NCBI RefSeq assembly: GCF_000214355.1
Contig: NC_015577.1
Location: 2,409,389 to 2,473,388 of the forward strand
Source of the DNA: Leadbettera azotonutricia ZAS-9
Lineage (GTDB): Bacteria; Spirochaetota; Spirochaetia; Treponematales; Breznakiellaceae
Direction of reading: 5' to 3'
Length of the DNA: 64,000 nucleotides
Numbering within the stretch: position 1 is the first letter of the stretch; every line of letters begins with the position of its first letter. The translations under genes were made by a program, and so were the position numbers. Below the pieces are notes generated by a model, which worked only from the letters and a program-made list of their open reading frames with translations, was not told the origin of the DNA and did no database searches. Positions 14,030 through 31,566 of this stretch are shown one piece after another.

Positions 14030-15235
14030 ATGAAAGCAGTGATGTACGGCGCCGGCAATATAGGCAGGGGTTTTATAGGCCAGCTTTTTGCTGCGTCGGG
14101 TTATGAAGTTACTTTTATTGATGTGGCTGAGCCTGTCATCGACGCCATTAACCGGGAAGGGAAATACCCTGTAAGGCTGCTCTCTTCCTCCGGCCATGAG
14201 GATGTTTGGGTTGAAGGGGTAAAGGCGATAAACGGCAGGGATATTCAAAAAGCAGCCGAGGCTATAGCAGGGGCCGACATCATGGCAACTGCAGTTGGGG
14301 TGAGGGTACTCCCCTTTATTGCGCCTGTCCTCGCTGAGGGGATACGGAACAGATTTTCAAAAACAACGGCTCCTCTCAATATCATCATTTGCGAAAATCT
14401 CATTGACGCAAACAAGCTCCTTGAAAGGCTCATCAAAGAAAAATTGGATACTGAAGGAACAAAGCTTTTTAATGAACGTGTCGGGCTTGTGGAAGCTTCC
14501 ATAGGGCGCATGGTTCCCATACAGACCGAAGCGATGCAGGACGGAAATCCCTTGCGGGTTTGTACTGAACATTACGGCTTCCTGCCTGTGGACAAAGATG
14601 CCTTTAAGGGCGAGATTCCGGAAATTAAAAACATGAAGCCCTTTGGCTGCTTCGATTTTTATATACATCGCAAACTTTTTATTCACAACATGGGTCACGC
14701 TATTTGTGCCTACCTGGGGATGCTTAAGTCTGATACCTTTATTTACGAAACGGTTAAACGGGGCGACATACTCTATATTGCCCAGAATGCAATGATGGAA
14801 AGCGCCCTGGCACTTTCAGCAAAATTTAAAATCCCCATTGAAGATATTTACTTTCATATTAAGGATCTTTTAAGCCGTTTTTCCAACAAAGCCCTGGGCG
14901 ACACCTGTGCCAGGGTCGGCGGGGATACGGTACGCAAGCTCGGCCCCAATGACAGGCTCATAGGCGCCATTAATTGCTGCAACGCCATGGGCATTAGTCC
15001 CGGTTTTATTTCGGCAGGCGCAGGGGCTGCCCTCTATTGCCACCTCAAAGAAAAAAATCTTCCCCAAACCAGGGAGGCTGCCGAAGCTGCGCTGGCGGAA
15101 GTTTCGGGCCTTGCCAAAGGAGCGGGGGAAGCAGCACTCATACTGAATATGCATGGGCTTTTTGCCAAAGGCGCAGAGTTCTCCGAAGCAATCAGGGCAG
15201 CAACAGAGGCAGGAAACAGGAAAGACATCATCTAG
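14030..15235 (+). CDS. mtlD: Mannitol-1-phosphate 5-dehydrogenase family protein
   Basis: NAD-dependent oxidoreductase converting mannitol 1-phosphate to fructose 6-phosphate. The Rossmann motif is at the N-terminus (YGAGNIGRGFIG, residues 6-17). The conserved ICENLIDAN segment and the catalytic-region HNMGHAICAYLG are both present. Length is 401 aa versus about 385 in typical MtlD. AGGGGAT precedes the ATG. No PTS mannitol transporter is in the window, so mannitol 1-phosphate could be an end product or osmolyte precursor instead of an imported substrate. The stop overlaps the convergent tyrA stop by 4 bp. Confidence 0.9.
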   Translation: MKAVMYGAGNIGRGFIGQLFAASGYEVTFIDVAEPVIDAINREGKYPVRLLSSSGHEDVWVEGVKAINGRDIQKAAEAIAGADIMATAVGVRVLPFIAPVLAEGIRNRFSKTTAPLNIIICENLIDANKLLERLIKEKLDTEGTKLFNERVGLVEASIGRMVPIQTEAMQDGNPLRVCTEHYGFLPVDKDAFKGEIPEIKNMKPFGCFDFYIHRKLFIHNMGHAICAYLGMLKSDTFIYETVKRGDILYIAQNAMMESALALSAKFKIPIEDIYFHIKDLLSRFSNKALGDTCARVGGDTVRKLGPNDRLIGAINCCNAMGISPGFISAGAGAALYCHLKEKNLPQTREAAEAALAEVSGLAKGAGEAALILNMHGLFAKGAEFSEAIRAATEAGNRKDII

Positions 15236-16095
15236 CCTTTCATAATCGTACGCCGCTCCCTCACCGCACCCAGGCGGGCTTCAAGCTCATGGGCAGATCC
15301 ATTGGCGATGAGCGCTTTTAAAGCGTCAAGGCTGCCTTCAAACTGTTCAATGCGTTTTATCAGCTCGCTTTTATTTTCGATGAAAATTTCAGACCACATG
15401 GATGCATTGAGCATGGCAATGCGGGTAAGGTCTTCAAAACTGCCCCCGCCGAATCGGGTAATTTGTGTATCCTGTTCGCAGTCAATGAGGGCTGCCGCGA
15501 TTACATGGCAGAGCTGGGATGTAAACGCGATCTTCCTGTCATGCTCTTCCGGCGTAGTTTCAGTAATTCTGCCAAAGCCCATACGATAAAGCAGATTTTT
15601 CACAAACTCAAGGTTCTCTGGTTTGTTCCGTTTGAGGGGGGTGAGTATATAGTTCTTGCCCTTAAAATTGCAATGTCCGGCATTGGCAAAGCCCCCCTTC
15701 TCAGATCCTGCCATGGGATGCCCGGGGATAAAATCCAAATCGGGCCTCAGGTTTTTTTCCAAGGCAGCAACGATATTCACTTTAATCCCTGCAATATCGG
15801 TAATAAGCGCCCCACTTTTAAAAAAAGCAGCCCAACTTTCCCAAAACTTAAGCAGCGTCGAAGGATTTAAACAGAGAAAAATAAAATCGCTGCGCTTAAC
15901 AATTTCCCCTGGTGTTGCAAAACCTTCGTCAATAACCCCCTGCGCCAAGGCCAGTGCCAAAGTTTCTTCATCCTTGTCGCAGGCTATGAGATGATCCGGA
16001 GATGCAGCCCCGCAGTGGCGCAAAGCCATAGCAACAGCCCCGCCCATGAGACCCAGGCCCACTATGCCTATAGTGCACTCTTCGATGGGCTTCAT
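15232..16095 (-). CDS. tyrA: Prephenate dehydrogenase
   Basis: Oxidative decarboxylation of prephenate (or arogenate) in tyrosine synthesis. The dinucleotide-binding motif GIVGLGLMGG begins at residue 10, and the active-site segment DFIPGHPMAGSEKGG, which holds the conserved His and Ser, follows around residue 125. The length of 287 aa fits a monofunctional TyrA without chorismate mutase or ACT domain. The ATG overlaps the aroF stop by 4 bp (ATGA), so translation is coupled. No feedback domain is evident, so the operon-level attenuator upstream may carry the Tyr response. Confidence 0.93.
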   Translation of the reverse strand: MKPIEECTIGIVGLGLMGGAVAMALRHCGAASPDHLIACDKDEETLALALAQGVIDEGFATPGEIVKRSDFIFLCLNPSTLLKFWESWAAFFKSGALITDIAGIKVNIVAALEKNLRPDLDFIPGHPMAGSEKGGFANAGHCNFKGKNYILTPLKRNKPENLEFVKNLLYRMGFGRITETTPEEHDRKIAFTSQLCHVIAAALIDCEQDTQITRFGGGSFEDLTRIAMLNASMWSEIFIENKSELIKRIEQFEGSLDALKALIANGSAHELEARLGAVRERRTIMKG

Positions 16096-17117
16096 ATTGT
16101 TTTTCCTTCTATCGCCGCATATTTCCGCAGAACCTCCATGAGTTCAGCAAAGGCCGCAGGCGTGATAGATTGCTCGCCGTCGCACAGGGCTTTCTCGGGG
16201 TTGTTGTGCACTTCTATGATGAGGCCGTCGGCGCCGGCTGCAATAGCGGCCTTTGCCATGGCCGGCACCATCCAGGAAAAGCCAGTGCCGTGGCTGGGGT
16301 CTACAATGACCGGAAGATGGCTTTGTTTTTTGAGGAAGGGGATTGCCGCAAGATCCAGGGTATTGCGGGTGTAAGTGTCGTAAGTGCGTATGCCCCGCTC
16401 GCAGAGTATGATTCTGTCGTTGCCGCCTGCCATGATGTATTCAGCCGCCATAAGCAATTCGGTAACGGTACAGGCATAGCCGCGCTTTAACAGTATTGGC
16501 TTGCGGCAATGGCCAAGCTCTTTGAGGAGGGTGAAATTCTGCATATTCCTCGCGCCGATCTGGATGATATCAACAGGATCGAAAAGTTCCAGCTGATGTA
16601 TGGCCATGAGTTCCGTCACTATAGGGAGGCCTGAAGCCTTTTTGGCTTCCAAGAGCAGATCGAGGCCTTCGAAGCCCAGGCCCTGAAAACTGTAAGGCGA
16701 AGTGCGGGGCTTGAAGACCCCTCCCCTAAGGAAGCCTGCGCCGGCTTTCTTAACCGCCACAGCGACTTCCACTATCTGTTCCCTGGTTTCTACAGAACAG
16801 GGGCCCGCTATGATGCCGAGTTTTCCGCCCCCTATGCTTTGAACACCCCCTGCCTCAAGGGCTATGTCCAGCCGCGAATCCTCGGGATGGAAAAGCCGGT
16901 TTGCCCGCTTGTAAGGCTCCTGAACCCGAATGACCTTTTCCACAAGGTGGTGGGCCTGGAGGGCTTCAGCGTCTATGCCGGTAGTATCGCCCACAAGGCC
17001 GATGATGGTCTGAATGGCCCCTTCGGAAAGATGGATCTTTACACCTTTTTTCTCCAGATTGGCTGAGAATTCTTTCACTTCCTCGCTGGAAGCCCCTCTC
17101 TTAATCGCAATTATCAT
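16092..17117 (-). CDS. aroF: 3-deoxy-7-phosphoheptulonate synthase (DAHP synthase, type I beta)
   Basis: Catalyses the first step of the shikimate pathway from PEP and erythrose 4-phosphate. The 341-aa protein has an N-terminal ferredoxin-like regulatory domain (residues 1 to about 75) followed by a TIM barrel of the KDO8PS/AroA-Tm type. GPCSVE is at 105-110. Other hallmark segments are GGVFKPRTSPYSFQG, ILLKRG and IVDPSHGTG. AAGGGG precedes the ATG. It is the first gene of a two-gene operon with tyrA and is preceded by a Tyr/Phe-rich leader peptide and terminator, so it is probably controlled by tyrosine or phenylalanine supply. Confidence 0.95.
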   Translation of the reverse strand: MIIAIKRGASSEEVKEFSANLEKKGVKIHLSEGAIQTIIGLVGDTTGIDAEALQAHHLVEKVIRVQEPYKRANRLFHPEDSRLDIALEAGGVQSIGGGKLGIIAGPCSVETREQIVEVAVAVKKAGAGFLRGGVFKPRTSPYSFQGLGFEGLDLLLEAKKASGLPIVTELMAIHQLELFDPVDIIQIGARNMQNFTLLKELGHCRKPILLKRGYACTVTELLMAAEYIMAGGNDRIILCERGIRTYDTYTRNTLDLAAIPFLKKQSHLPVIVDPSHGTGFSWMVPAMAKAAIAAGADGLIIEVHNNPEKALCDGEQSITPAAFAELMEVLRKYAAIEGKTI

Positions 17118-17158: not shown

Positions 17159-17198
17159 AAAAAAGGGGAGGTTCGAGGGCATTGCCCGGGAACCTCCC
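17159..17198 (-). terminator. Attenuator terminator in the aroF-tyrA leader
   Basis: Read on the minus strand, GGGAGGTTC (17198-17190) pairs with GAACCTCCC, followed inward by GGGC/GCCC with an AAT loop, and the stem is followed by CTTTTTT (17164-17159 are the T positions). This is a canonical intrinsic terminator 41 bp before the aroF start codon, inside the operon leader and not at a gene end. It comes after a leader-peptide ORF rich in Tyr and Phe codons. Confidence 0.85.
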
Positions 17199-17203
17199 TG
17201 AAT

Positions 17204-17241
17204 AACCAAGGTTGGCTTAAGTTTATAACTTAAGCATGGTT
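17204..17241 (-). promoter_or_regulatory. Leader stem that competes with the attenuator
   Basis: On the minus strand, AACCA (17241-17237) can pair with TGGTT (17208-17204), with the inner GCTTAAG/CTTAAGC stem (17235-17229 with 17221-17215). The same GGAACC at 17243-17238 is complementary to GGTTCC (17194-17189) in the 5' arm of the terminator. The two pairings are mutually exclusive, as expected of an antiterminator. The leader peptide's last codons and stop (17232-17230) overlap this stem, so ribosome position would choose the fold. Confidence 0.65.
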
Positions 17242-17328
17242 CCTTTTGGGCAGAGGAAAATAATAGTAATAATAAAAGTAAGCCCCTGTGAGGGTTGAGA
17301 CTGATTCTGCCATGTTGAAGCTTTCCAT
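17230..17328 (-). CDS. Aromatic amino-acid leader peptide (Tyr/Phe-rich)
   Basis: A 32-codon ORF, ATG at 17328-17326, TAA at 17232-17230. Residues 17-24 are YFYYYYYF: six Tyr and two Phe codons in eight, a run almost impossible by chance. AAGGA lies about 6 bases upstream of the ATG, so it should be translated. Its stop lies inside the leader stem and its downstream side is the terminator ahead of aroF-tyrA. This is the layout of ribosome-mediated attenuation: stalling at Tyr (or Phe) codons when charged tRNA is scarce would allow antitermination and expression of DAHP synthase and prephenate dehydrogenase. Confidence 0.85.
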   Translation of the reverse strand: MESFNMAESVSTLTGAYFYYYYYFPLPKRNHA

Positions 17329-17342
17329 AATTTCCTTAAAAT

Positions 17343-17371
17343 ATCCTTGCATAAGCAAAGAAAATTGTCAA
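17343..17371 (-). promoter_or_regulatory. Candidate promoter for the aroF leader transcript
   Basis: A perfect TTGACA lies at 17371-17366 on the minus strand, in the 55-bp gap between the LEA lipoprotein stop and the leader-peptide ATG. The hexamer at the ideal 17-bp spacing is AAGGAT, a weak match to TATAAT. The -35 box is convincing; the -10 is not. Confidence 0.35.
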
Positions 17372-17383
17372 GCCCTCATGCCT

Positions 17384-18619
17384 TTATCTCACCAACCTGG
17401 TGCTGCCTGTCAAATTAAGGGGCAATTCCAGCTTGTCCAAACCTGGGAAGTCGCTCAGGAGACTCATATCGCCCAGGCAGCTGTAATTTACGCTGGTTCC
17501 GGCGCTGATTATGCCCACAAGATCTTTTACCATGTCAAGTGAAGAAATAGTAACCGAAAGGGGAATGGCGGTTTTAGTATTTGGCTTAAGCTTCGGAGGG
17601 GTTTCCAAAAAACCCTGGGCCCAATTATTGTTATTCACCTTAAAGTTATAGTTGAATTTGCCGATGTCCATGGCAAAACTGTTTTTATTTTCCACTTCCC
17701 AGTTGATGACAAATTCCAGTTTCTGCAAACCTAAATTCTTTATGTTGATGCCTTTTACTGCAACATTGGGCTTTTGCAATATGGGAAGCAGCCCGGGAAT
17801 ATCAAGCATATCTTTTACATCCTCAAGACCCGGTACAGAAAGGGAGCTTACCAAAGACATGAGCGATTTTGCTTCACCTGAATTGCCCAAAGACCCAATC
17901 GCTTTTATAACATCTTCATATTTTAAGCTTACGTTGATATCGGCCTGGCCCTTCGCATTGGCCGCAATTTCTTTGCCCGCAACAATACTGCTCGTGAGCA
18001 GGGTTGCGCCATTGACCCCGTATTCCCAGTCCACCTTGGGGAAGGGTATGGGGAAATTATTGGGGTTGTCAACATTGAAACCGCAGGCAAGTTCAATGCC
18101 TGAAAAATCAATCTTCCCGATACGGATAGAGCCCGGGCTGAGTTTAGGCAGCTGCAAAAGGGGCAGAACCCCTGAAAAATCAAGGTTATAAACTTTATCC
18201 TGCAATACGGGAAGAGGAAAGCTTATGCCCAGGGCTATATTATAAGCGGCCTCTTTGGTTTCCCACAGGCTCGTAAAGGTTTTATAGAGACCCTCGTAAG
18301 TAACGCTAAAGGGGACATCAACTGTAACAGTATTGCGTTTTGTTATTTTCGTACCCTGGTTCAGAATTCCGTTTACAAAGGAAGCTTCATTGACAAACAC
18401 TTTCCAGTCAATCTTGGGGAAGGGAATATCAAAGCCATTGGGGTTCTCCACATTAATACGGCAGATAAGGTCTACACCCTTAAGACTAATGCCTGCAAGA
18501 TCAACGGATTTGACTGAAAGTTTTGGCTCCTGCAGTATTCCGCTTAGGGACTGGCAGGAAAAAACAGACAACCCCAGAAGAGCTGCAAGAAGCATTATTA
18601 CACTTTTTCTTGTCTGCAT
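17384..18619 (-). CDS. LEA/WHy-domain lipoprotein, three domains
   Basis: A predicted lipoprotein of 411 aa. The N-terminal signal ends in LGLSVFSCQS. Three WHy-type domains follow, each with the ENPNGF, DNPNNFPIPFPKVDW or VENKNSFAMD variant of the asparagine-proline motif, at about residues 57-65, 190-205 and 310-325. It is a paralogue of the lipoprotein at 1790-2668. It starts 8 bp after the serS stop on the same strand and so is probably read through from serS. Its role is unknown; association with the cell envelope is inferred from the lipobox. Confidence 0.8.
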   Translation of the reverse strand: MQTRKSVIMLLAALLGLSVFSCQSLSGILQEPKLSVKSVDLAGISLKGVDLICRINVENPNGFDIPFPKIDWKVFVNEASFVNGILNQGTKITKRNTVTVDVPFSVTYEGLYKTFTSLWETKEAAYNIALGISFPLPVLQDKVYNLDFSGVLPLLQLPKLSPGSIRIGKIDFSGIELACGFNVDNPNNFPIPFPKVDWEYGVNGATLLTSSIVAGKEIAANAKGQADINVSLKYEDVIKAIGSLGNSGEAKSLMSLVSSLSVPGLEDVKDMLDIPGLLPILQKPNVAVKGINIKNLGLQKLEFVINWEVENKNSFAMDIGKFNYNFKVNNNNWAQGFLETPPKLKPNTKTAIPLSVTISSLDMVKDLVGIISAGTSVNYSCLGDMSLLSDFPGLDKLELPLNLTGSTRLVR

Positions 18620-22809: not shown

Positions 22810-25800
22810 TTATTTTACAACCATAACCTTACGAATTTCGTCGATGTCCGGACCCACCACACGGATAAAGTACATACCCCGGGCAACAGCGCGGCCTCCC
22901 CTGTTGGTGCCTTTCCAGGCCGCCCGGTATTCACCCGCCTCACGATAACCTCGGTAGAGGATATCCACCATGGTTCCGTCCATAGTAAATACCTGAATAG
23001 TCACTTGTCCACCCTTTGCAAGGTGGTACTGCACATAGGCGGATTCACCGTTATTCGGATTTATCACATTGTTCAAAACAGTGACACCGCTTCGCTGCAA
23101 GGTAATATCGTGGATCTCAAAACCAAAGGGGCGTACCAGACGGTACCAGTTGGCGGGGATAGCCGCCTTAGGAGCAATGTCGAGACGGCCTGCAAAAAGA
23201 TCATCCGGAGAACCTGAAAGATGGAAAAAGAAGTCCAGAATTTTGCCGCTGTCATAATTTGGTTCATCTTTGCTAAACTTGTACTGAAAAAGAATGCTTC
23301 CCGCATTCCCGTCAGGCGATCTGGCAGGAGGGTTGAACCAGAAGTAAGGAACTATATTGGTAAAATAAGGATTGGTTTCAGTATTCGGCGGAGAAGGAGG
23401 AATTGCTATATCCCGGGGCAACCAAAGACCGTGATCCAACCGGTTAAAGCCCTGAGTCCTATAAGTCTGATTGACACTATAATCATAAACAATTTTCGGA
23501 ACTATGGAACTTGAAGCAAGGTTATCGTTCAGCCTTGCCTGAAGCACAGAATCCCGCTCTTCAAGGTATTTCTTCCCTGTGAATTCCCAAATAAGCCCTG
23601 TATCCGAACCATCCTGGCCCCAGAACGAATCGGCGTCTAGCGAAGGAATATTCGCATTGGAGGACTGATCGTACCTTGCCCATACAGGCCATACAAAATA
23701 CCGGGTATCAGTACCATTCGAAGGGGGCACGGAAATGAGCACATCGGTAACACGATGGGTTGCATAACCCGGAATACCGGAAGAAATATCATAGGTTTTG
23801 TTAGGCGGATAAACTATGCCGGCGGGGTTGTCGGTATCTATTACGATTTTATAAGGCTGGAATGCTCCGCCATTGACTTCATAATTATAATTTTGAGGAT
23901 ACTTAGGATGAGGATACATAAAATAGTAAGGCCGCGTTGAGGATGGAGTGCATAGATCTTCTACCCGCACAGCCAGATCTACTGCATTATGAAGCGTAAA
24001 ATATTGCATTTCTGCGGCAAGGTCTGAAACACTATACCCCGTAGTCAAATCCATGCGGAATTCACGGTATTCATCTGCGTCAAGCGATTCAAGAGTCCCC
24101 GAAGAAGCGGGACTGTTCACACTTACGGAAAGGACCGCGCTTGAATCAAGCTTTTCGGATAATTGGAAGAATAGTTCCGGATGTTCCGGTATCGCGAGGG
24201 CATAACTTATACGCGGCGCTGCAGTATCCGTAGTAATCCCTTTATCCTGAGCCGGATCGCTTGCTTTTTGCGGAGGCGGGTTTCCAATTATTGTATATCC
24301 TGTAGCAAGATCCTTTAAGGAAGTATTGCGTACAATTTCCCATTCAAGAGTTACGTCCGAGTCTGTATAAGGTTTTTCTTCCAAAAACACATAGATAGAA
24401 TCCAAATCATGGTCAGGAGAAGAAGTAATATACTCTTCTACCCTCCGGTATCCATTGGCTTTAACTTTATACGGCTCACCGGTATGCTTGTTTCTGACAT
24501 TTATTTCAAAGTCAGAAAAATCCCCGTTAAGATCAAATGCGGACTGTAGGCGTATCCTGTCTATTCTTCCATTATGGTTTGAATCTTCAGTAAAGGAATA
24601 AAAGAAATTATTAATTATAAACCAGTTAACATTAAAACGGTTGTCAGGCGCAGTAAGGTGGGCATAATTTCTTTTGGCAGGATCAGGCTCAAGAGGATCT
24701 ATAAGCACAGGGTCATTGCCTATATTGATTTTATCTATCAATACATATGGGAAGGCGGAAATATAATAATTTCCGGAGCCATCGGATTCGGAGGGCACCG
24801 GGATTTTAGTAGCCGAATAACTATAAAAAATCTCAAGATGGTTTATTATCATTTCCGCGCTTGGGTTTAATGAAAAAAGCCAGAAATGTTCATTGGCGTC
24901 ATTAGGCGGAAGCCATTGAGGTGAATTTGGATAAACCCCTGTATTGGCCTCATTTTTGTCATTTTCCCTGGTCAAGGTAATGGCTGTACTGTGATCTGGA
25001 AATAGATCCATTGTATTGGGTGCTATAAAGAGGCCGCCATAAATAGTATGTCCGGCTGTAGCAGCATCTACCCAGTTTGAAAATTTTAGTATTGCCTTGT
25101 TCTCATGGCAGGCAAGAATCCACCAGGTTGTGTCTCCGCTGATTGTATGGCTTACAGCGGCTCCGGTATATGAAGAATCTCCAATTTCTACCATGCTTTT
25201 ATTGTAATTAAATTTTCCCCCGGATTTTTGGATCCAGTTTTCGTTGACAATAATGCGGGGGTAATAAGCTGCAGAATAAGGAAGCGGGGGGATTACGGAA
25301 TTGGTCCCAAGCTCTGCATTATTCCCTATGGTTATACTGCCCTTAAAGACCGTATTGGTAAAAATAATTGCTTTTGAATCATCTTCAACAACAAGATTGC
25401 CTAAGGTAACCTGGGGTATAAATGGAGAGGCGATATTTTCGCGTACCCGTAATTGTTTTGCGGCAGTGCTATTCATGACAAGGGTAAGGTCTTTTATTCC
25501 ATTAGGCGAAGCGCCTGTATCAAAGTCATAATTTATAAAAACATTACCCCTAGCTATTATTTTATTTGCTTCATTTATTTCAATTTTATGATTGGCAGCA
25601 GGAGCATTATAAAAATCCTCAGTTTGGAGTATAGCGCCTTTATCCATAATCAATGTTCCATTGAGCCCTATAAATCCTTTTGAAAAAGCAGGCGTTGTTG
25701 CAGGAGCCGTAATAACAGTTCCACCCATCTGCCAGGAAAAAGAAGGCGATGGGGATGCGGTTCCGATAGAAAGATGAAGTTCGTTAGCCGGACTCGTAAG

Positions 25801-28800
25801 GGTTTCAGGCTTTATTTCCAAAGTCATAGCATCCATCTGAATTACATCACCGGTAAGCTGAACAATATTTGGATGTGTAGTGGCTGGCGCTGTCGGTTCG
25901 CTTCTATTTTCGATAATAACATTGCCCAGGGGGGATGCTACGTTATGCTGGAATGTTTGTATTTCACTCATAGGAACAATATAGTCACCACGGAGTACAA
26001 TGGTATTATGACGGTGGTAAAAAATACCCAGATCAGCAATCTGGCCATTAAAGACGATGGCATCTTCAGGGTCGCCAGTGAGAGGCACACGGTTATTACC
26101 ATTCAGATAACCAGCGGCTCCTGAATAATTGCCATTAAAGATGATTACCTCTGTATAAATGCCTGTTTCTCCTGCTGTAATGGTCCCGGTATTTGTGGTG
26201 GTTCCGCTAATGGTCAAGGTAGTACCGGGCTGAATATCACCGTAATTACCCACTGCAAAAGTTCCGGTATCTTTAATATAAATAGTGGTACCGGTTATCA
26301 GGGTATTGTTTACTGTTAGGTTTACCCCGCTAGTTGATGCTGTTCCAAAAACAAAACTCCCGGAATAATCCTGAGTTCCCTCGAACGTCGTCATTCCCGT
26401 TCCGATGGTCTGGGCGAAACTTTCAGCCCTTACCCCCGCGTTAAATGTAACATCTTCTGCGTTGGAAACGGTAATGGCTCCAAGCCGGCTCACGCCGGTT
26501 CCACCTATCGCACCGAATACGACAATATCTCCTGCGGCGCCGGTATCAAGGATCAGATTTTTGCCCGCACCGGTAATTGGTCCTTCGATAGTAATACCGG
26601 CGGCAGTGATAATATTGGCAGCAGTGTTTGCCAGCGCAATAGGCCCTGCGCCGGTCTGGGTAAAGGTACCGTTTATAACAATATTCCCGTTCAGTGTAAT
26701 GGTTCCTGCACCATTGGTAAGTCCAAGATTTCCTCCTGGTACAACATCATCCACTGTCTGTAAGCTAATACTTCCTCCGCTGCCTGCAGAATTCAAGATA
26801 ACATTATCAATTAAAGTTAAAGGAGCGGCAAAAGTGATTTCGGCTTTTGCGGATACAACATTTGTCGTAGTGATATTTGCCCCTATCTGATTGGTTCCTC
26901 CGGAATTGATTTGGGAAAAAACGTCCCCGGAACTAATAGTCGCTCCTGTATTTACACTGAGGGTACCACTATTGTCAAGAGTTATTGAACCTGTGGTGGT
27001 CAGAGTATTATTCAAGGTCAAATCGTTACCGGTAAACGCAAAGTCGCCGGTATAATTCTGTATTCCGTTAAAGGCCGTTGTTCCAGTTCCCGCAGCTTGG
27101 GTAAAGCTGACGGCAGCAACCGCCGCACTGACGCCAAAGGTCACATTCACGGCATTGGGAATCGTTATCGTTGTCCCGGCCGTCATTGTATTATTAACCG
27201 AAAGATCCGTTCCGGTAAACGCAAAGGAGCCGCCATAATTCTGAGTACTATTAAAGGTTGTTGCACCTGATCCTGCGGCTTGGGTAAAGCTGGCGGCGTA
27301 AACAGCGTTTTCGAAAGCTGCATCAGCTGCATTACTAACTGTTATATCACCCAGACCGAGAGAGGTGGTTCCCATATCACCGTTCACGTTTATATGCAAA
27401 CTGGTACTGGTATTTTTGGAATCCAGGGTTAAATCATTATTTTGTCCGGCGGTCCCCTCAACAGAAACAAGATTAATCCCGGCGGCAGTGATGTTTCCAC
27501 TTCCCCGTAGAATTGTTAACGGGGATGTCGTAGTAAAGTATGCAGCATCCCCCATATTGATTGTGGCTGTGCCCGAGACATCGAGTAGCGCCCAGAAACG
27601 AACATTACCCGAACCGGGTTTTAAAGTAAGATGGTTGACAGTAGGACCGGTATAGCTAAAAGAATTGTAAAATTCTATAAAGCCGCCGGTTCCTAAAGTA
27701 CTATCCGCCTCCAGCGTCTTGGCTGTGGCATCTGAAACATTTACAAAATAGATACTTTTATTACTCTTGGTCTTTAAGAAAACCTGCGCTCCCGTTGCTG
27801 CTGAATTAATTTTAGCGGCAGAACCGGGAAGATGGGTATCCGCTGAGGGGAATGTTCCGGAATAATAAATTATATCCCTTGCTCCCCGGGAACTAATATA
27901 AATATGTCCCCCGGGGGCTGGTCCTGTAGCGGACATAGCGGCATAACTACCTGTAAGATCATCCAGCTCCAAATAGATATTCCCGGCGGTGGCATGAGTA
28001 CTTCCGGTTCCACTCACATTATTCGCTTGAATTACTATTGATTCATCTGCTATACCAGTAACAGCTATCGTTGAACTCGGACCTATTGTTAGATCACCGC
28101 TTCCACTATCCGGCCCGGCGATAATAGTCAAGGTTTCGGCTGCCAGGGCACCATTGGAAAATATAATAGCATTATTAAGAGGAGCAGCATTATTTGTTTC
28201 TATTTTTACTGCCCGGACTGATCCTGTGTAGTTGGTATTTATGTCCGCACTTACCGATATTGGTCCGTTTGCGGTTATATCCACTGTCCCGTTGCTTGCT
28301 ATACCACCGGAACTTATTGTCACTTCACCGTTATTTGTTGCAATTAGAGTAACATTTCCTACACGCGCGCCACTGGTTCCTATTGCACCGTTTACCGTTA
28401 TTGTTCCACTTGCATTTACATTTAGTGATCCTACCGCACTTACACCGCCTATAGCTAACGCCTGGCCGTTCTTGAAGTCTACATCTCCGCCTGCCCCGGT
28501 TACCGTAAATGTATCTACTTCGTTTGTGGTATTATCCAGATCTATCGCACCTGCGGAATCTACCGTCAGATTCATACCAGTTATTATACCGTTCCCGCTT
28601 ATCCCGTCGTCCCCTGTCAGCGTTACCGTCCCGGCATCAGACGTTACTCCCGTTACAGACAGGGTCCCGCTCTCCGTTACCTCTACGGCCCCACCGCTGG
28701 TTTCATTGACCGCAGTAAGAGACAGGGCTCCCCCCGACGCATTCGTAAATTCTATATCCCCCGTGGGTGTTCCCTCGGTATTATTCAGTTCCGCGCTCAC

Positions 28801-31566
28801 TGTTATCGTATTATTCCCGCTCAGTGTTATTCCGTCCTGCGCGTTTACCGTTAGTGTCGTCCCGCTTATTATTCCGCTCTCGTGTACCGCGCCTCCGCTT
28901 GAGGTCAGCTCTATAGGCGCTCCTGCTGCTGTAATATCCCCGTTCCCGCTTATCCCGTCGTCCCCTGTCAGCGTTACCGTCCCGGCATCAGACGTTACTC
29001 CCGTTACAGACAGGGTCCCGCTCTCCGTTACCTCTACGGCCCCACCGCTGGTTTCATTGACCGCAGTAAGAGACAGGGCTCCCCCCGACGCATTCGTAAA
29101 TTCTATATCCCCCGTGGGTGTTCCCTCGGTATTATTCAGTTCCGCGCTCACTGTTATCGTATTATTCCCGCTCAGTGTTATTCCGTCCTGCGCGTTTACC
29201 GTTAGTGTCGTCCCGCTTATTATTCCTGTCTCGTGTACCGCGCCTCCGCTTGAGGTCAGCTCTATAGGCGCTCCTGCTGCTGTAATATCCCCGTTCCCGC
29301 TTATCCCGTCGTCCCCTGTCAGCGTTACCGTCCCGGCATCAGACGTTACTCCCGTTACAGACAGGGTCCCGCTCTCCGTTACCTCTACGGCCCCACCGCT
29401 GGTTTCATTGACCGCAGTAAGAGACAGGGCTCCCCCCGACGCATTCGTAAATTCTATATCCCCCGTGGGTGTTCCCTCGGTATTATTCAGTTCCGCGCTC
29501 ACTGTTATCGTATTATTCCCGCTCAGTGTTATTCCGTCCTGCGCGTTTACCGTTAGTGTCGTCCCGCTTATTATTCCTGTCTCGTGTACCGCGCCTCCGC
29601 TTGAGGTCAGCTCTATAGGCGCTCCTGCTGCTGTAATATCCCCGTTCCCGCTTATCCCGTCGTCCCCTGTCAGCGTTACCGTCCCGGCATCAGACGTTAC
29701 TCCCGTTACAGACAGGGTCCCGCTCTCCGTTACCTCTACGGCCCCACCGCTGGTTTCATTGACCGCAGTAAGAGACAGGGCTCCCCCCGACGCATTCGTA
29801 AATTCTATATCCCCCGTGGGTGTTCCCTCGGTATTATTCAGTTCCGCGCTCACTGTTATCGTATTATTCCCGCTCAGTGTTATTCCGTCCTGCGCGTTTA
29901 CCGTTAGTGTCGTCCCGCTTATTATTCCGCTCTCGTGTACCGCGCCTCCGCTTGAGGTCAGCTCTATAGGCGCTCCTGCTGCTGTAATATCCCCGTTCCC
30001 GCTTATCCCGTCGTCCCCTGTCAGCGTTACCGTCCCGGCATCAGACGTTACTCCCGTTACAGACAGGGTCCCGCTCTCCGTTACCTCTACGGCCCCACCG
30101 CTGGTTTCATTGACCGCAGTAAGAGACAGGGCTCCCCCCGACGCATTCGTAAATTCTATATCCCCCGTGGGTGTTCCCTCGGTATTATTCAGTTCCGCGC
30201 TCACTGTTATCGTATTATTCCCGCTCAGTGTTATTCCGTCCTGCGCGTTTACCGTTAGTGTCGTCCCGCTTATTATTCCTGTCTCGTGTACCGCGCCTCC
30301 GCTTGAGGTCAGCTCTATAGGCGCTCCTGCTGCTGTAATATCCCCGTTCCCGCTTATCCCGTCGTCCCCTGTCAGCGTTACCGTCCCGGCATCAGACGTT
30401 ACTCCCGTTACAGACAGGGTCCCGCTCTCCGTTACCTCTACGGCCCCACCGCTGGTTTCATTGACCGCAGTAAGAGACAGGGCTCCCCCCGACGCATTCG
30501 TAAATTCTATATCCCCCGTGGGTGTTCCCTCGGTATTATTCAGTTCCGCGCTCACTGTTATCGTATTATTCCCGCTCAGTGTTATTCCGTCCTGCGCGTT
30601 TACCGTTAGTGTCGTCCCGCTTATTATTCCGCTCTGCGTTAACGCCCCGCCAGTGGTCAGGACTATACTTCCTAATGAGCTTAGCGCGCTTCCTATCTCA
30701 AACCCGCCTATATCGGTATAGCTTATCGCACTTGGCGCTGTTCCCGATGTTTGCAGAGTAGTTATATCGTTGTCTGTAAGTTCAAGGGTAAAGTCTCCGC
30801 CGCCCCCAAGTTCCAGCGTGACTGCGGCAATGGCCCCAGTGCCGCTTTGTGTTACAGGCCCTGCGCTTTTAAGTACCACCGTATTCCCTACGATACCATA
30901 TCCCTCCAACACTATCCCGTCGCTGCCGACATCAATAGTGACATCGCCTCCGCTAATGTAAGCGCTGTTGCTCTGAGTTACAGCAGTGGCAGCGCTCAAG
31001 GTTCCCCCCGCGCTAGTAATAACCCCGCCGTCCTGAATGATATTTGTGCCGGAAACCTTGTGAACCCCAATGCCAAGCGCCCCGTCATTTGTATTTAGCA
31101 ATAATACAGTTCCTGTAACAGTGAGATCGGTCATAAGCGTCGCTATGGTACTGCCCGTCTTGTTTACCGTCACATTCATAATGTCTGTTGTACCACTGAG
31201 GGTTATGTTCTGCGCTCCGGTACCGTTCAGGGTTAATAGCGTAGACACCACAAGCCCTCCGGAGCCCACAGAGTTAATCAAATCCCCGCTGACTGTCAGA
31301 TTAGCCACGCTTAGCACTCCGGCGCTTATTGTCAGATTGCCGTTGACGACAAGAGATGAAGGTACATTTGGATTCGTACCTGTGCCGCTAGTAGTGTTAA
31401 TTATTAAGTTATTGCCATCTGCTGCCGTATAAGCGATGCCGCCGTACCAATTACCTGGGGTAGCCCAAACATCGTCTGTGGTTCCTCTCCATTCAAAATC
31501 GACTCCCCACAAGGCGAAATTCGCGAAAAATATACCAAATACAACGGCAATCCAGAGTTTCTTCAT
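22810..31566 (-). CDS. Giant secreted repeat protein with FlgD-like C-terminus
   Basis: A protein of 2,918 aa that I do not recognise as a named family. The N-terminus is a signal peptide (MKKLWIAVVFGIFFANFALW) followed by W-rich residues with a GNWYG pattern. The first ~1,900 residues are dominated by short beta-strand repeats rich in T, S, G, N and V (LTVNNTL, GTITLNG, ITAAGI), typical of filamentous-haemagglutinin or beta-helix adhesins. Residues of about 310-995 are nearly six copies of a 117-residue unit. The last ~80 residues, VQYHLAKGGQVTIQVFTMDG and GYREAGEYRAAWKG with MYFIRVV, resemble FlgD Ig-like or secretion tails. No autotransporter barrel, LPxTG or transmembrane anchor is seen. 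Adhesion or matrix function is inference. Confidence 0.8.
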   Translation of the reverse strand: MKKLWIAVVFGIFFANFALWGVDFEWRGTTDDVWATPGNWYGGIAYTAADGNNLIINTTSGTGTNPNVPSSLVVNGNLTISAGVLSVANLTVSGDLINSVGSGGLVVSTLLTLNGTGAQNITLSGTTDIMNVTVNKTGSTIATLMTDLTVTGTVLLLNTNDGALGIGVHKVSGTNIIQDGGVITSAGGTLSAATAVTQSNSAYISGGDVTIDVGSDGIVLEGYGIVGNTVVLKSAGPVTQSGTGAIAAVTLELGGGGDFTLELTDNDITTLQTSGTAPSAISYTDIGGFEIGSALSSLGSIVLTTGGALTQSGIISGTTLTVNAQDGITLSGNNTITVSAELNNTEGTPTGDIEFTNASGGALSLTAVNETSGGAVEVTESGTLSVTGVTSDAGTVTLTGDDGISGNGDITAAGAPIELTSSGGAVHETGIISGTTLTVNAQDGITLSGNNTITVSAELNNTEGTPTGDIEFTNASGGALSLTAVNETSGGAVEVTESGTLSVTGVTSDAGTVTLTGDDGISGNGDITAAGAPIELTSSGGAVHESGIISGTTLTVNAQDGITLSGNNTITVSAELNNTEGTPTGDIEFTNASGGALSLTAVNETSGGAVEVTESGTLSVTGVTSDAGTVTLTGDDGISGNGDITAAGAPIELTSSGGAVHETGIISGTTLTVNAQDGITLSGNNTITVSAELNNTEGTPTGDIEFTNASGGALSLTAVNETSGGAVEVTESGTLSVTGVTSDAGTVTLTGDDGISGNGDITAAGAPIELTSSGGAVHETGIISGTTLTVNAQDGITLSGNNTITVSAELNNTEGTPTGDIEFTNASGGALSLTAVNETSGGAVEVTESGTLSVTGVTSDAGTVTLTGDDGISGNGDITAAGAPIELTSSGGAVHESGIISGTTLTVNAQDGITLSGNNTITVSAELNNTEGTPTGDIEFTNASGGALSLTAVNETSGGAVEVTESGTLSVTGVTSDAGTVTLTGDDGISGNGIITGMNLTVDSAGAIDLDNTTNEVDTFTVTGAGGDVDFKNGQALAIGGVSAVGSLNVNASGTITVNGAIGTSGARVGNVTLIATNNGEVTISSGGIASNGTVDITANGPISVSADINTNYTGSVRAVKIETNNAAPLNNAIIFSNGALAAETLTIIAGPDSGSGDLTIGPSSTIAVTGIADESIVIQANNVSGTGSTHATAGNIYLELDDLTGSYAAMSATGPAPGGHIYISSRGARDIIYYSGTFPSADTHLPGSAAKINSAATGAQVFLKTKSNKSIYFVNVSDATAKTLEADSTLGTGGFIEFYNSFSYTGPTVNHLTLKPGSGNVRFWALLDVSGTATINMGDAAYFTTTSPLTILRGSGNITAAGINLVSVEGTAGQNNDLTLDSKNTSTSLHINVNGDMGTTSLGLGDITVSNAADAAFENAVYAASFTQAAGSGATTFNSTQNYGGSFAFTGTDLSVNNTMTAGTTITIPNAVNVTFGVSAAVAAVSFTQAAGTGTTAFNGIQNYTGDFAFTGNDLTLNNTLTTTGSITLDNSGTLSVNTGATISSGDVFSQINSGGTNQIGANITTTNVVSAKAEITFAAPLTLIDNVILNSAGSGGSISLQTVDDVVPGGNLGLTNGAGTITLNGNIVINGTFTQTGAGPIALANTAANIITAAGITIEGPITGAGKNLILDTGAAGDIVVFGAIGGTGVSRLGAITVSNAEDVTFNAGVRAESFAQTIGTGMTTFEGTQDYSGSFVFGTASTSGVNLTVNNTLITGTTIYIKDTGTFAVGNYGDIQPGTTLTISGTTTNTGTITAGETGIYTEVIIFNGNYSGAAGYLNGNNRVPLTGDPEDAIVFNGQIADLGIFYHRHNTIVLRGDYIVPMSEIQTFQHNVASPLGNVIIENRSEPTAPATTHPNIVQLTGDVIQMDAMTLEIKPETLTSPANELHLSIGTASPSPSFSWQMGGTVITAPATTPAFSKGFIGLNGTLIMDKGAILQTEDFYNAPAANHKIEINEANKIIARGNVFINYDFDTGASPNGIKDLTLVMNSTAAKQLRVRENIASPFIPQVTLGNLVVEDDSKAIIFTNTVFKGSITIGNNAELGTNSVIPPLPYSAAYYPRIIVNENWIQKSGGKFNYNKSMVEIGDSSYTGAAVSHTISGDTTWWILACHENKAILKFSNWVDAATAGHTIYGGLFIAPNTMDLFPDHSTAITLTRENDKNEANTGVYPNSPQWLPPNDANEHFWLFSLNPSAEMIINHLEIFYSYSATKIPVPSESDGSGNYYISAFPYVLIDKINIGNDPVLIDPLEPDPAKRNYAHLTAPDNRFNVNWFIINNFFYSFTEDSNHNGRIDRIRLQSAFDLNGDFSDFEINVRNKHTGEPYKVKANGYRRVEEYITSSPDHDLDSIYVFLEEKPYTDSDVTLEWEIVRNTSLKDLATGYTIIGNPPPQKASDPAQDKGITTDTAAPRISYALAIPEHPELFFQLSEKLDSSAVLSVSVNSPASSGTLESLDADEYREFRMDLTTGYSVSDLAAEMQYFTLHNAVDLAVRVEDLCTPSSTRPYYFMYPHPKYPQNYNYEVNGGAFQPYKIVIDTDNPAGIVYPPNKTYDISSGIPGYATHRVTDVLISVPPSNGTDTRYFVWPVWARYDQSSNANIPSLDADSFWGQDGSDTGLIWEFTGKKYLEERDSVLQARLNDNLASSSIVPKIVYDYSVNQTYRTQGFNRLDHGLWLPRDIAIPPSPPNTETNPYFTNIVPYFWFNPPARSPDGNAGSILFQYKFSKDEPNYDSGKILDFFFHLSGSPDDLFAGRLDIAPKAAIPANWYRLVRPFGFEIHDITLQRSGVTVLNNVINPNNGESAYVQYHLAKGGQVTIQVFTMDGTMVDILYRGYREAGEYRAAWKGTNRGGRAVARGMYFIRVVGPDIDEIRKVMVVK
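28589..30633 (-). repeat. 351-bp tandem repeat array inside the giant protein gene (5.8 copies)
   Basis: Copy boundaries recur at exactly 351 bp: the same cccgcttattattcc block is at 28861, 29212, 29563, 29914, 30265 and 30616. Copies look nearly identical at the DNA level, including third positions. The one variant I see is a Ser or Thr codon at each unit junction (after VHE): in coding order after the first copy, T, S, T, T, S. The last copy is cut after GISGNG. The unit encodes 117 aa with SGIISGTTLTVNAQDGI at its start. Such near identity points to recent expansion or gene conversion; copy number probably varies between strains. Confidence 0.95.

Follow-up and report, generated by a model that had tools for sequence, protein, structure and literature searches.

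The aroF-tyrA operon of the termite-gut spirochaete Leadbettera azotonutricia ZAS-9 is very probably controlled by a transcription attenuator of the ribosome-mediated kind, with charged tRNA-Tyr as its signal. By computation on a stretch of 64,000 nucleotides of this genome (the window), and on the corresponding loci of related species, we have found the parts of an attenuator, their conservation, covariation of both of its alternative helices and a fold that depends on the footprint of the ribosome. The window has an ORF rich in tyrosine codons ahead of a biosynthetic operon, an intrinsic terminator and an antiterminator that competes with it, laid out as follows (window coordinates):

17366..17371, minus strand: -35 element TTGACA of the leader promoter, an exact match to the consensus
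17343..17348, minus strand: weak -10 element AAGGAT, with a 17-nt spacer; provisional, and not listed by a generic promoter scan
17333..17337, minus strand: AAGGA, by its sequence a possible ribosome binding site, 4 nt from the ATG
17230..17328, minus strand: leader ORF of 32 codons plus TAA, with a counterpart in 40 genomes of the family
17257..17280, minus strand: regulatory codons 17-24 (YFYYYYYF), the sole stretch of the peptide that relatives share
17238..17243, minus strand: R2, GGAACC, which falls within codons 29-31 of the leader ORF and forms the antiterminator's 5' strand; pairs with 17189-17194
17215..17235, minus strand: P2, a hairpin of 9 bp found by folding (17235-17227 with 17223-17215, loop ATA), with the stop codon in its 5' strand
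17196..17211, minus strand: P3, a hairpin found by folding (CCTTGG/TCAGGG), in the antiterminator state only
17189..17198, minus strand: R3, GGGAGGTTCC, the 5' arm of the terminator, whose GGTTCC doubles as the antiterminator's 3' strand (folding and covariation)
17159..17198, minus strand: intrinsic terminator with a 9-bp outer stem, an inner GGGC/GCCC stem and T6 (folding and covariation)
16092..17117, minus strand: aroF, encoding a DAHP synthase of the PRK08673 subfamily with a ferredoxin-like domain, 341 aa (NF006421, 467 bits; PF00793; PF18152)
15232..16095, minus strand: tyrA, encoding prephenate dehydrogenase, 287 aa (PF02153, PF20463 and the NCBIfam prephenate dehydrogenases)

The leader ORF sits between a lipoprotein-like gene (17384-18619) and aroF (17117-16092), all three on the minus strand. 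It runs from an ATG at 17328 to a TAA at 17232-17230 and encodes the peptide MESFNMAESVSTLTGAYFYYYYYFPLPKRNHA, in which codons 17-24 are six for Tyr, with both TAT and TAC in use, and two for Phe. A 32-codon ORF with just this run, YFYYYYYF, had been reported in a preliminary description of the region, as had an AAGGA ribosome binding site; both are present, though the spacing of the latter (17337-17333) to the ATG is only 4 nt. The exact start of the ORF is not certain, there being an alternative in-frame ATG at 17313, preceded by GGAAAG; the first ATG aligns with starts of the MKSS/MKYS type in relatives. At the place that matches the leader promoter, relatives have TTGACA, a 17-nt spacer and a TATAxT-like -10 element, and four of them have CAGGAT at the -10 position. 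We count the weak -10 element of the window and the closeness of the ribosome binding site to the start against the attenuator. A terminator-like inverted repeat (TCTTTGCTTATGCAAGGA, then TATTTT) overlaps the predicted leader promoter at 17344-17361 on the minus strand and may end the transcripts of the upstream gene.

Over both strands of the whole 3.86-Mb genome, just four sites have five Tyr codons in succession. We considered the other three as leaders and rejected them, one lying between dnaA and dnaN and two by unrelated genes, none in a leader-like setting. The first of these is a five-Tyr run in a short ORF with the C-terminal sequence PYYYYYYLYI (L092:1420-1530, plus strand). Elsewhere in the window, an ORF of 2918 aa (22810-31566, minus strand) with several near-identical repeats (SGIISGTTLTVNAQDGITLSGNN...) is likely to encode a repetitive surface protein.

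The start of tyrA overlaps the end of aroF. The only DAHP synthase in the genome besides AroF is encoded together with prephenate dehydratase in a single ORF of 670 aa (G000:C1:3168861-3170534, minus strand; L271, L273), and because this other enzyme is fused to prephenate dehydratase, aroF-tyrA can be assigned to the tyrosine branch. The chorismate-binding (TrpE/PabB) family was not found in the genome by a search that was positive in 14 of 14 control genomes. Thus, given the fused second enzyme and the missing TrpE/PabB family, DAHP synthesis in this organism appears to be shared out between a tyrosine operon (aroF-tyrA) and a phenylalanine fusion, without a tryptophan branch. No Phe leader was found before the fusion of DAHP synthase and prephenate dehydratase, nor before four fused relatives.

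The RNA between the Tyr run and aroF can adopt two mutually exclusive structures. In one, the outer stem of the terminator pairs 17198-17190 with 17174-17166; it is followed by T6 at 17164-17159 and ends 41 nt before aroF, so that the terminator with a 9-bp arm and T6 that had been claimed just before aroF is confirmed at 17198-17159. In the other, the segment of its 5' arm at 17194-17189 pairs with 17238-17243, forming an antiterminator in which R2:R3 encloses P2 and P3 and which competes with the terminator for a single strand, R3. The stop codon had been placed within a stem said to pair in two ways: it does lie in a stem, P2, but it is the terminator's 5' arm that has two partners. Scans with Rfam covered the window and 20 related loci and detected no known leader in the former or in the treponeme loci among the latter. 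A T-box leader was rejected on the lack of a match to its covariance model in the window and the related treponeme loci scanned, and a metabolite riboswitch of a kind described in Rfam on the lack of a match in the window.

A Tyr-rich ORF at this place in relatives had been proposed as a check on the attenuator, and such ORFs are indeed there. We examined the 700 bases upstream of aroF orthologues of the same family (87 usable regions) for ORFs within the last 500 bases. Regions with an ORF having at least three, at least four or at least five Tyr in seven codons numbered 43, 35 and 22 of the 87; dinucleotide shuffles of the regions gave 2-4, 0-1 and 0, and their reverse strands 4, 0 and 0. 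When other amino acids were counted at five of seven codons, the next best was Leu, in 5 of the 87. By this comparison the Tyr run upstream of aroF is not a product of chance. We gathered 40 Tyr leaders from the family. In the second family of the order that we examined (f3, apparently that of Treponema proper), about 24 of 28 aroF genes are preceded by a Tyr leader, and a genome of a third family (G227) has one before aroF as well. Outside the Tyr run the peptides differ among relatives, and the length and spacing of the run also vary. Counted against the attenuator is that some relatives sharing this aroF (genera g10, g15, g46, g53 and g18) lack such a leader. The leader ORF is absent from three loci of close relatives in genus g46 (L004, from genome G133, L005 and L006); at L004 aroF still has a promoter and a similar terminator before it but no Tyr run, which looks like loss of the leader.

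In each of the 40 leaders a hairpin touches the stop codon, and in each a terminator separates the ORF from aroF (an automatic search found 39 and missed G029, in which the stem and T-run are visible by eye). When the R2..R3 stretch, from where the Tyr run ends through the terminator's 5' arm, was folded, the structure of minimum energy contained the antiterminator in 34 of 40 leaders of the first family and 23 of 27 of the second. The design common to the 34 is that R2 pairs with R3 around P2, which holds the stop codon, and a small P3, which in most relatives is CCTG..CAGG or CCTTG..CAAGG. R2 usually lies some 10-20 nt downstream of the Tyr run, and most relatives have GGAGCC (R2) and GGCTCC (R3) where the window has GGAACC and GGTTCC. 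Over the 40 leaders R2 is distributed 25/10/5 among the codon phases, encoding AEP, REP, GA, RS or RN; since it occurs in all three phases, it is kept as RNA and not as peptide.

Both helices covary. In the terminator stem, 24 cells were changed on both sides, as compared with 7.6 in shuffles, and none of 500 shuffles reached this value. For the antiterminator we exchanged R2 and R3 partners between species and compared the energies of the duplexes. In the second family the native mean was -12.8 kcal/mol versus -8.3 kcal/mol for swapped partners (0 of 5000 permutations as low), and in the first family it was -12.8 versus -12.0 kcal/mol (35 of 5000). The second-family variants of R2:R3, which include GTGCGGA:TCCGCAC, TGGAAGTC:GACTTCCA, GCAGAGC:GCTCTGC and GGAAGGTT:AACCTTCC among others, differ entirely in sequence from those of the first family and yet keep their complementarity. 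Against column shuffles the antiterminator helix gave no clear excess in the first-family alignment, because a few rows are misaligned there and the family varies little at these positions; at the level of sequence, it was the swapping of partners in the second family that settled the covariation of the antiterminator.

How the position of the ribosome bears on the fold was modeled with a 27-nt footprint blocked and RNA polymerase just past R3. In the window the probability of the antiterminator was 1.00 with codons 17-23 in the A site, had fallen to 0.08 at codon 26 and was 0.00 at codon 27 and every later codon up to the stop. Folding of the leader with and without a stalled ribosome, another check proposed at the outset, therefore bore out the expectation: a stall on Tyr gave the antiterminator at 1.0, and a ribosome at the stop codon gave 0. 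The model also yields the antiterminator in the window when no ribosome is present, whereas an untranslated trp leader terminates. Over the 40 leaders, the median upstream pairing of R3 was 0.70 with the ribosome in the middle of the Tyr run versus 0.45 at the stop (Wilcoxon p=0.001), although stall and stop were clearly separated in only about half of them. Ribosome position thus selects the structure in the model of the window and does so in part over the 40 relatives. In many relatives R2 lies at least 20 nt before the stop and is not covered by a ribosome there; where the distance is too great for R2 to be covered, the opening of P2 would have to act instead. In the full-length RNA the model makes the terminator more stable than the antiterminator in every ribosome state, and therefore the choice between them would have to be kinetic. 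A kinetic decision is accepted for trp attenuation. The fold without a ribosome, the uncovered R2 of many relatives and the stability of the full-length terminator all count against the attenuator.

We infer a transcription start just upstream of the leader ORF, translation of the leader, stalling within it and a response to tyrosine, and propose the following sequence of events. RNA polymerase would start at the leader promoter, with a ribosome following it. When Tyr-tRNA is scarce, the ribosome would stall on the six Tyr codons with its footprint short of R2; R2 would then pair with R3 as soon as R3 has been transcribed, and the antiterminator, with P2 and P3 inside, would capture the 5' arm of the terminator, allowing the polymerase to read into aroF-tyrA. 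With Tyr-tRNA in good supply, the ribosome would instead reach the stop codon, cover R2 and open P2, and R3, left free, would pair with the 3' arm of the terminator, ending transcription at the T-run. That a shortage of Tyr-tRNA (or Phe-tRNA) releases transcription of the tyrosine pathway had been put forward in the preliminary description; the relatives, the antiterminator and the covariation support the proposal, from which a response at the level of expression would follow.

Could the same attenuator take its signal from phenylalanine, or from aromatic amino acids generally, and not from tyrosine? We consider this unlikely. The run in the window does include two Phe codons, and Phe equals Tyr in some relatives of the second family, but over the best nine codons of each leader the first family averages 4.8 Tyr and 1.3 Phe, with Tyr ahead in 38 of 40, and the second 4.6 and 2.0, with Tyr ahead in 20 of 24; several runs are made up of Tyr alone (YYYYYY, YYYYYYY). 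The operon, moreover, is aroF-tyrA, and the Phe branch has a fused enzyme of its own without such a leader. Phe and Tyr are mixed in the aroF leaders of clostridia, and the AroR leader of Corynebacterium glutamicum, with Phe-Tyr-Phe before aroF, answers to Phe and not to Tyr (PMC11802643); Brachyspira-like genomes, on the other hand, carry a Tyr leader on one copy of aroF and a Phe leader on the other. Of the signal first suggested, "Tyr (or Phe)", the Tyr part stands, given the excess of Tyr over Phe in 38 of 40 leaders and the assignment of aroF-tyrA to the tyrosine branch, and the Phe part is disfavored.

More improbable still is that the leader is an arrest peptide sensing free tyrosine in the exit tunnel, in the manner of TnaC with tryptophan, with the same RNA switch downstream. 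Stalling of this kind would have an equal consequence for the RNA and is compatible with the folds, but arrest peptides need specific residues and here only the Tyr run is conserved, with varying length and spacing; sensing of free tyrosine, furthermore, would turn the operon on when tyrosine is high, the wrong sense for biosynthesis. Hardly any credence can be given to the idea that the terminator serves only the lipoprotein-like gene upstream, by ending its transcripts, and that the Tyr run arose by chance or belongs to a genuine small protein: intergenic terminators are common and the stretch does lie between two same-strand genes, but the run recurs in dozens of species as against 0-1 in shuffles, a promoter-like site separates the upstream gene from the ORF, R2:R3 covaries, and the peptide is not conserved outside the run, with no match to it or to related peptides in Pfam and NCBIfam scans, and as far as sequence comparison allows the idea is already refuted.

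Leaders of a similar kind were seen at other loci. In Brachyspira-like genomes (G407, G445, G361, G459 and G386; L175-L182) aroF is duplicated, one copy having a Tyr leader (ending in ..FKSIYAYYFFYYGV or YAYYFFYYGV) and the other a Phe leader (ending in ..SFCFFFSFFGV); in each, a hairpin of the TGGCGTTTAAGGCGCCA type contains the stop codon, and a T-rich stretch follows it. Judged by their sequences, these are a natural Tyr/Phe pair with a logic like that of the treponemes in an architecture unlike theirs. The leader of a further spirochaete lineage (G382; MNFIGYYYYLKFIT before the stop) has a 9-base R2 that overlaps the stop codon and is the perfect complement of a part of the terminator hairpin. 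In the genome of the window itself, hisG is preceded by a His leader (MKRISNHHHNFTSPESIAF before the stop; L272:2140-2300, minus strand; G000:C1 near 2,952,400) with a TTGACA promoter and a terminator, GCCGTGGACT..AGTCCACGGC-T9, just before hisG. This is a second candidate leader-peptide attenuator in the genome, and leader-peptide control is probably a general habit of these spirochaetes. Clostridial aroF genes failed as a negative control, in that many carry aromatic leaders themselves. ORFs rich in both Phe and Tyr precede aroF in many Firmicutes, namely Clostridia and relatives (L197, L198, L202, L204, L206, L217, L246, L266 and others), and a WGYFFSAGYF-like motif that recurs in the aroF leaders of Clostridium, Pelosinus and Megasphaera may be more than a codon run.

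With somewhat more confidence than doubt, we extend our proposal to the phylum: Tyr-specific leader attenuation of the tyrosine-branch DAHP synthase would be old and widespread in Spirochaetota (in Treponematales and, in another form, in Brachyspira), with duplicated aroF genes divided between Tyr and Phe leaders, and would be the first attenuator with a demonstrated response to tyrosine. If confirmed, the amino-acid attenuators would gain a tyrosine member and reach the spirochaetes, a Tyr-tRNA sensor would become available for biotechnology, and it would be explained how gut spirochaetes that are difficult to culture adjust an expensive pathway. Thanks to the cross-species comparison, the mechanism can be put to a direct test in a heterologous host.

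Leader-peptide attenuation controls the trp, phe and his operons of enteric bacteria, in which the tyrosine genes are controlled at the level of DNA, through TyrR. The mechanism and parts that we propose are those of the trp, phe and his attenuators. An attenuator at aroR-aroF of C. glutamicum was reportedly described by Neshat et al. in 2014. As in pheL-pheA, pheST and trpL-trpE of Escherichia coli, a short ORF in which codons for the relevant amino acid abound is followed by mutually exclusive antiterminator and terminator structures ahead of the operon (PMC11802643). Unlike the phe and trp attenuators of E. coli, the window, which is from a different phylum, has Tyr codons and not Phe or Trp codons, its antiterminator encloses two extra hairpins, one of them with the stop codon, and it has no clear protector (1:2) hairpin. 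The aroR-aroF locus of C. glutamicum is likened to ours by leader and gene, an aromatic leader peptide preceding the aroF DAHP synthase gene (PMC11802643; PMC4046766), but it too belongs to a different phylum, and its Phe-Tyr-Phe peptide is the one that answers to Phe; the only reported test that we found of a Tyr-codon leader before aroF showed no Tyr response (PMC11802643). The uORFC-13-1 motif of Acholeplasma, likened by uORF and gene, likewise combines a uORF with a terminator and lies exclusively upstream of aroF, but has one or more Phe codons and not Tyr, in yet another phylum (PMC8632094). The tyrosine T-box leaders of Firmicutes resemble the proposed attenuator in that charging of tRNA-Tyr controls Tyr genes through a terminator and an antiterminator, and differ from it in having a conserved T-box structure and needing no translation of an ORF; T-boxes are named as the RNA-level control of tyrosine genes (PMC1262725). 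According to a survey of 2010, leader-peptide systems had been known from no groups other than Proteobacteria and Actinobacteria; the survey itself added Firmicutes (PMC2965389). We found no report of a Tyr-responsive attenuator, or of a spirochaete leader-peptide attenuator of any kind, in the open-access literature, from which many relevant papers are absent. As far as can be seen in the literature searched, the aroF-tyrA leader would thus be the first tyrosine member of the amino-acid attenuators and the first from its phylum.
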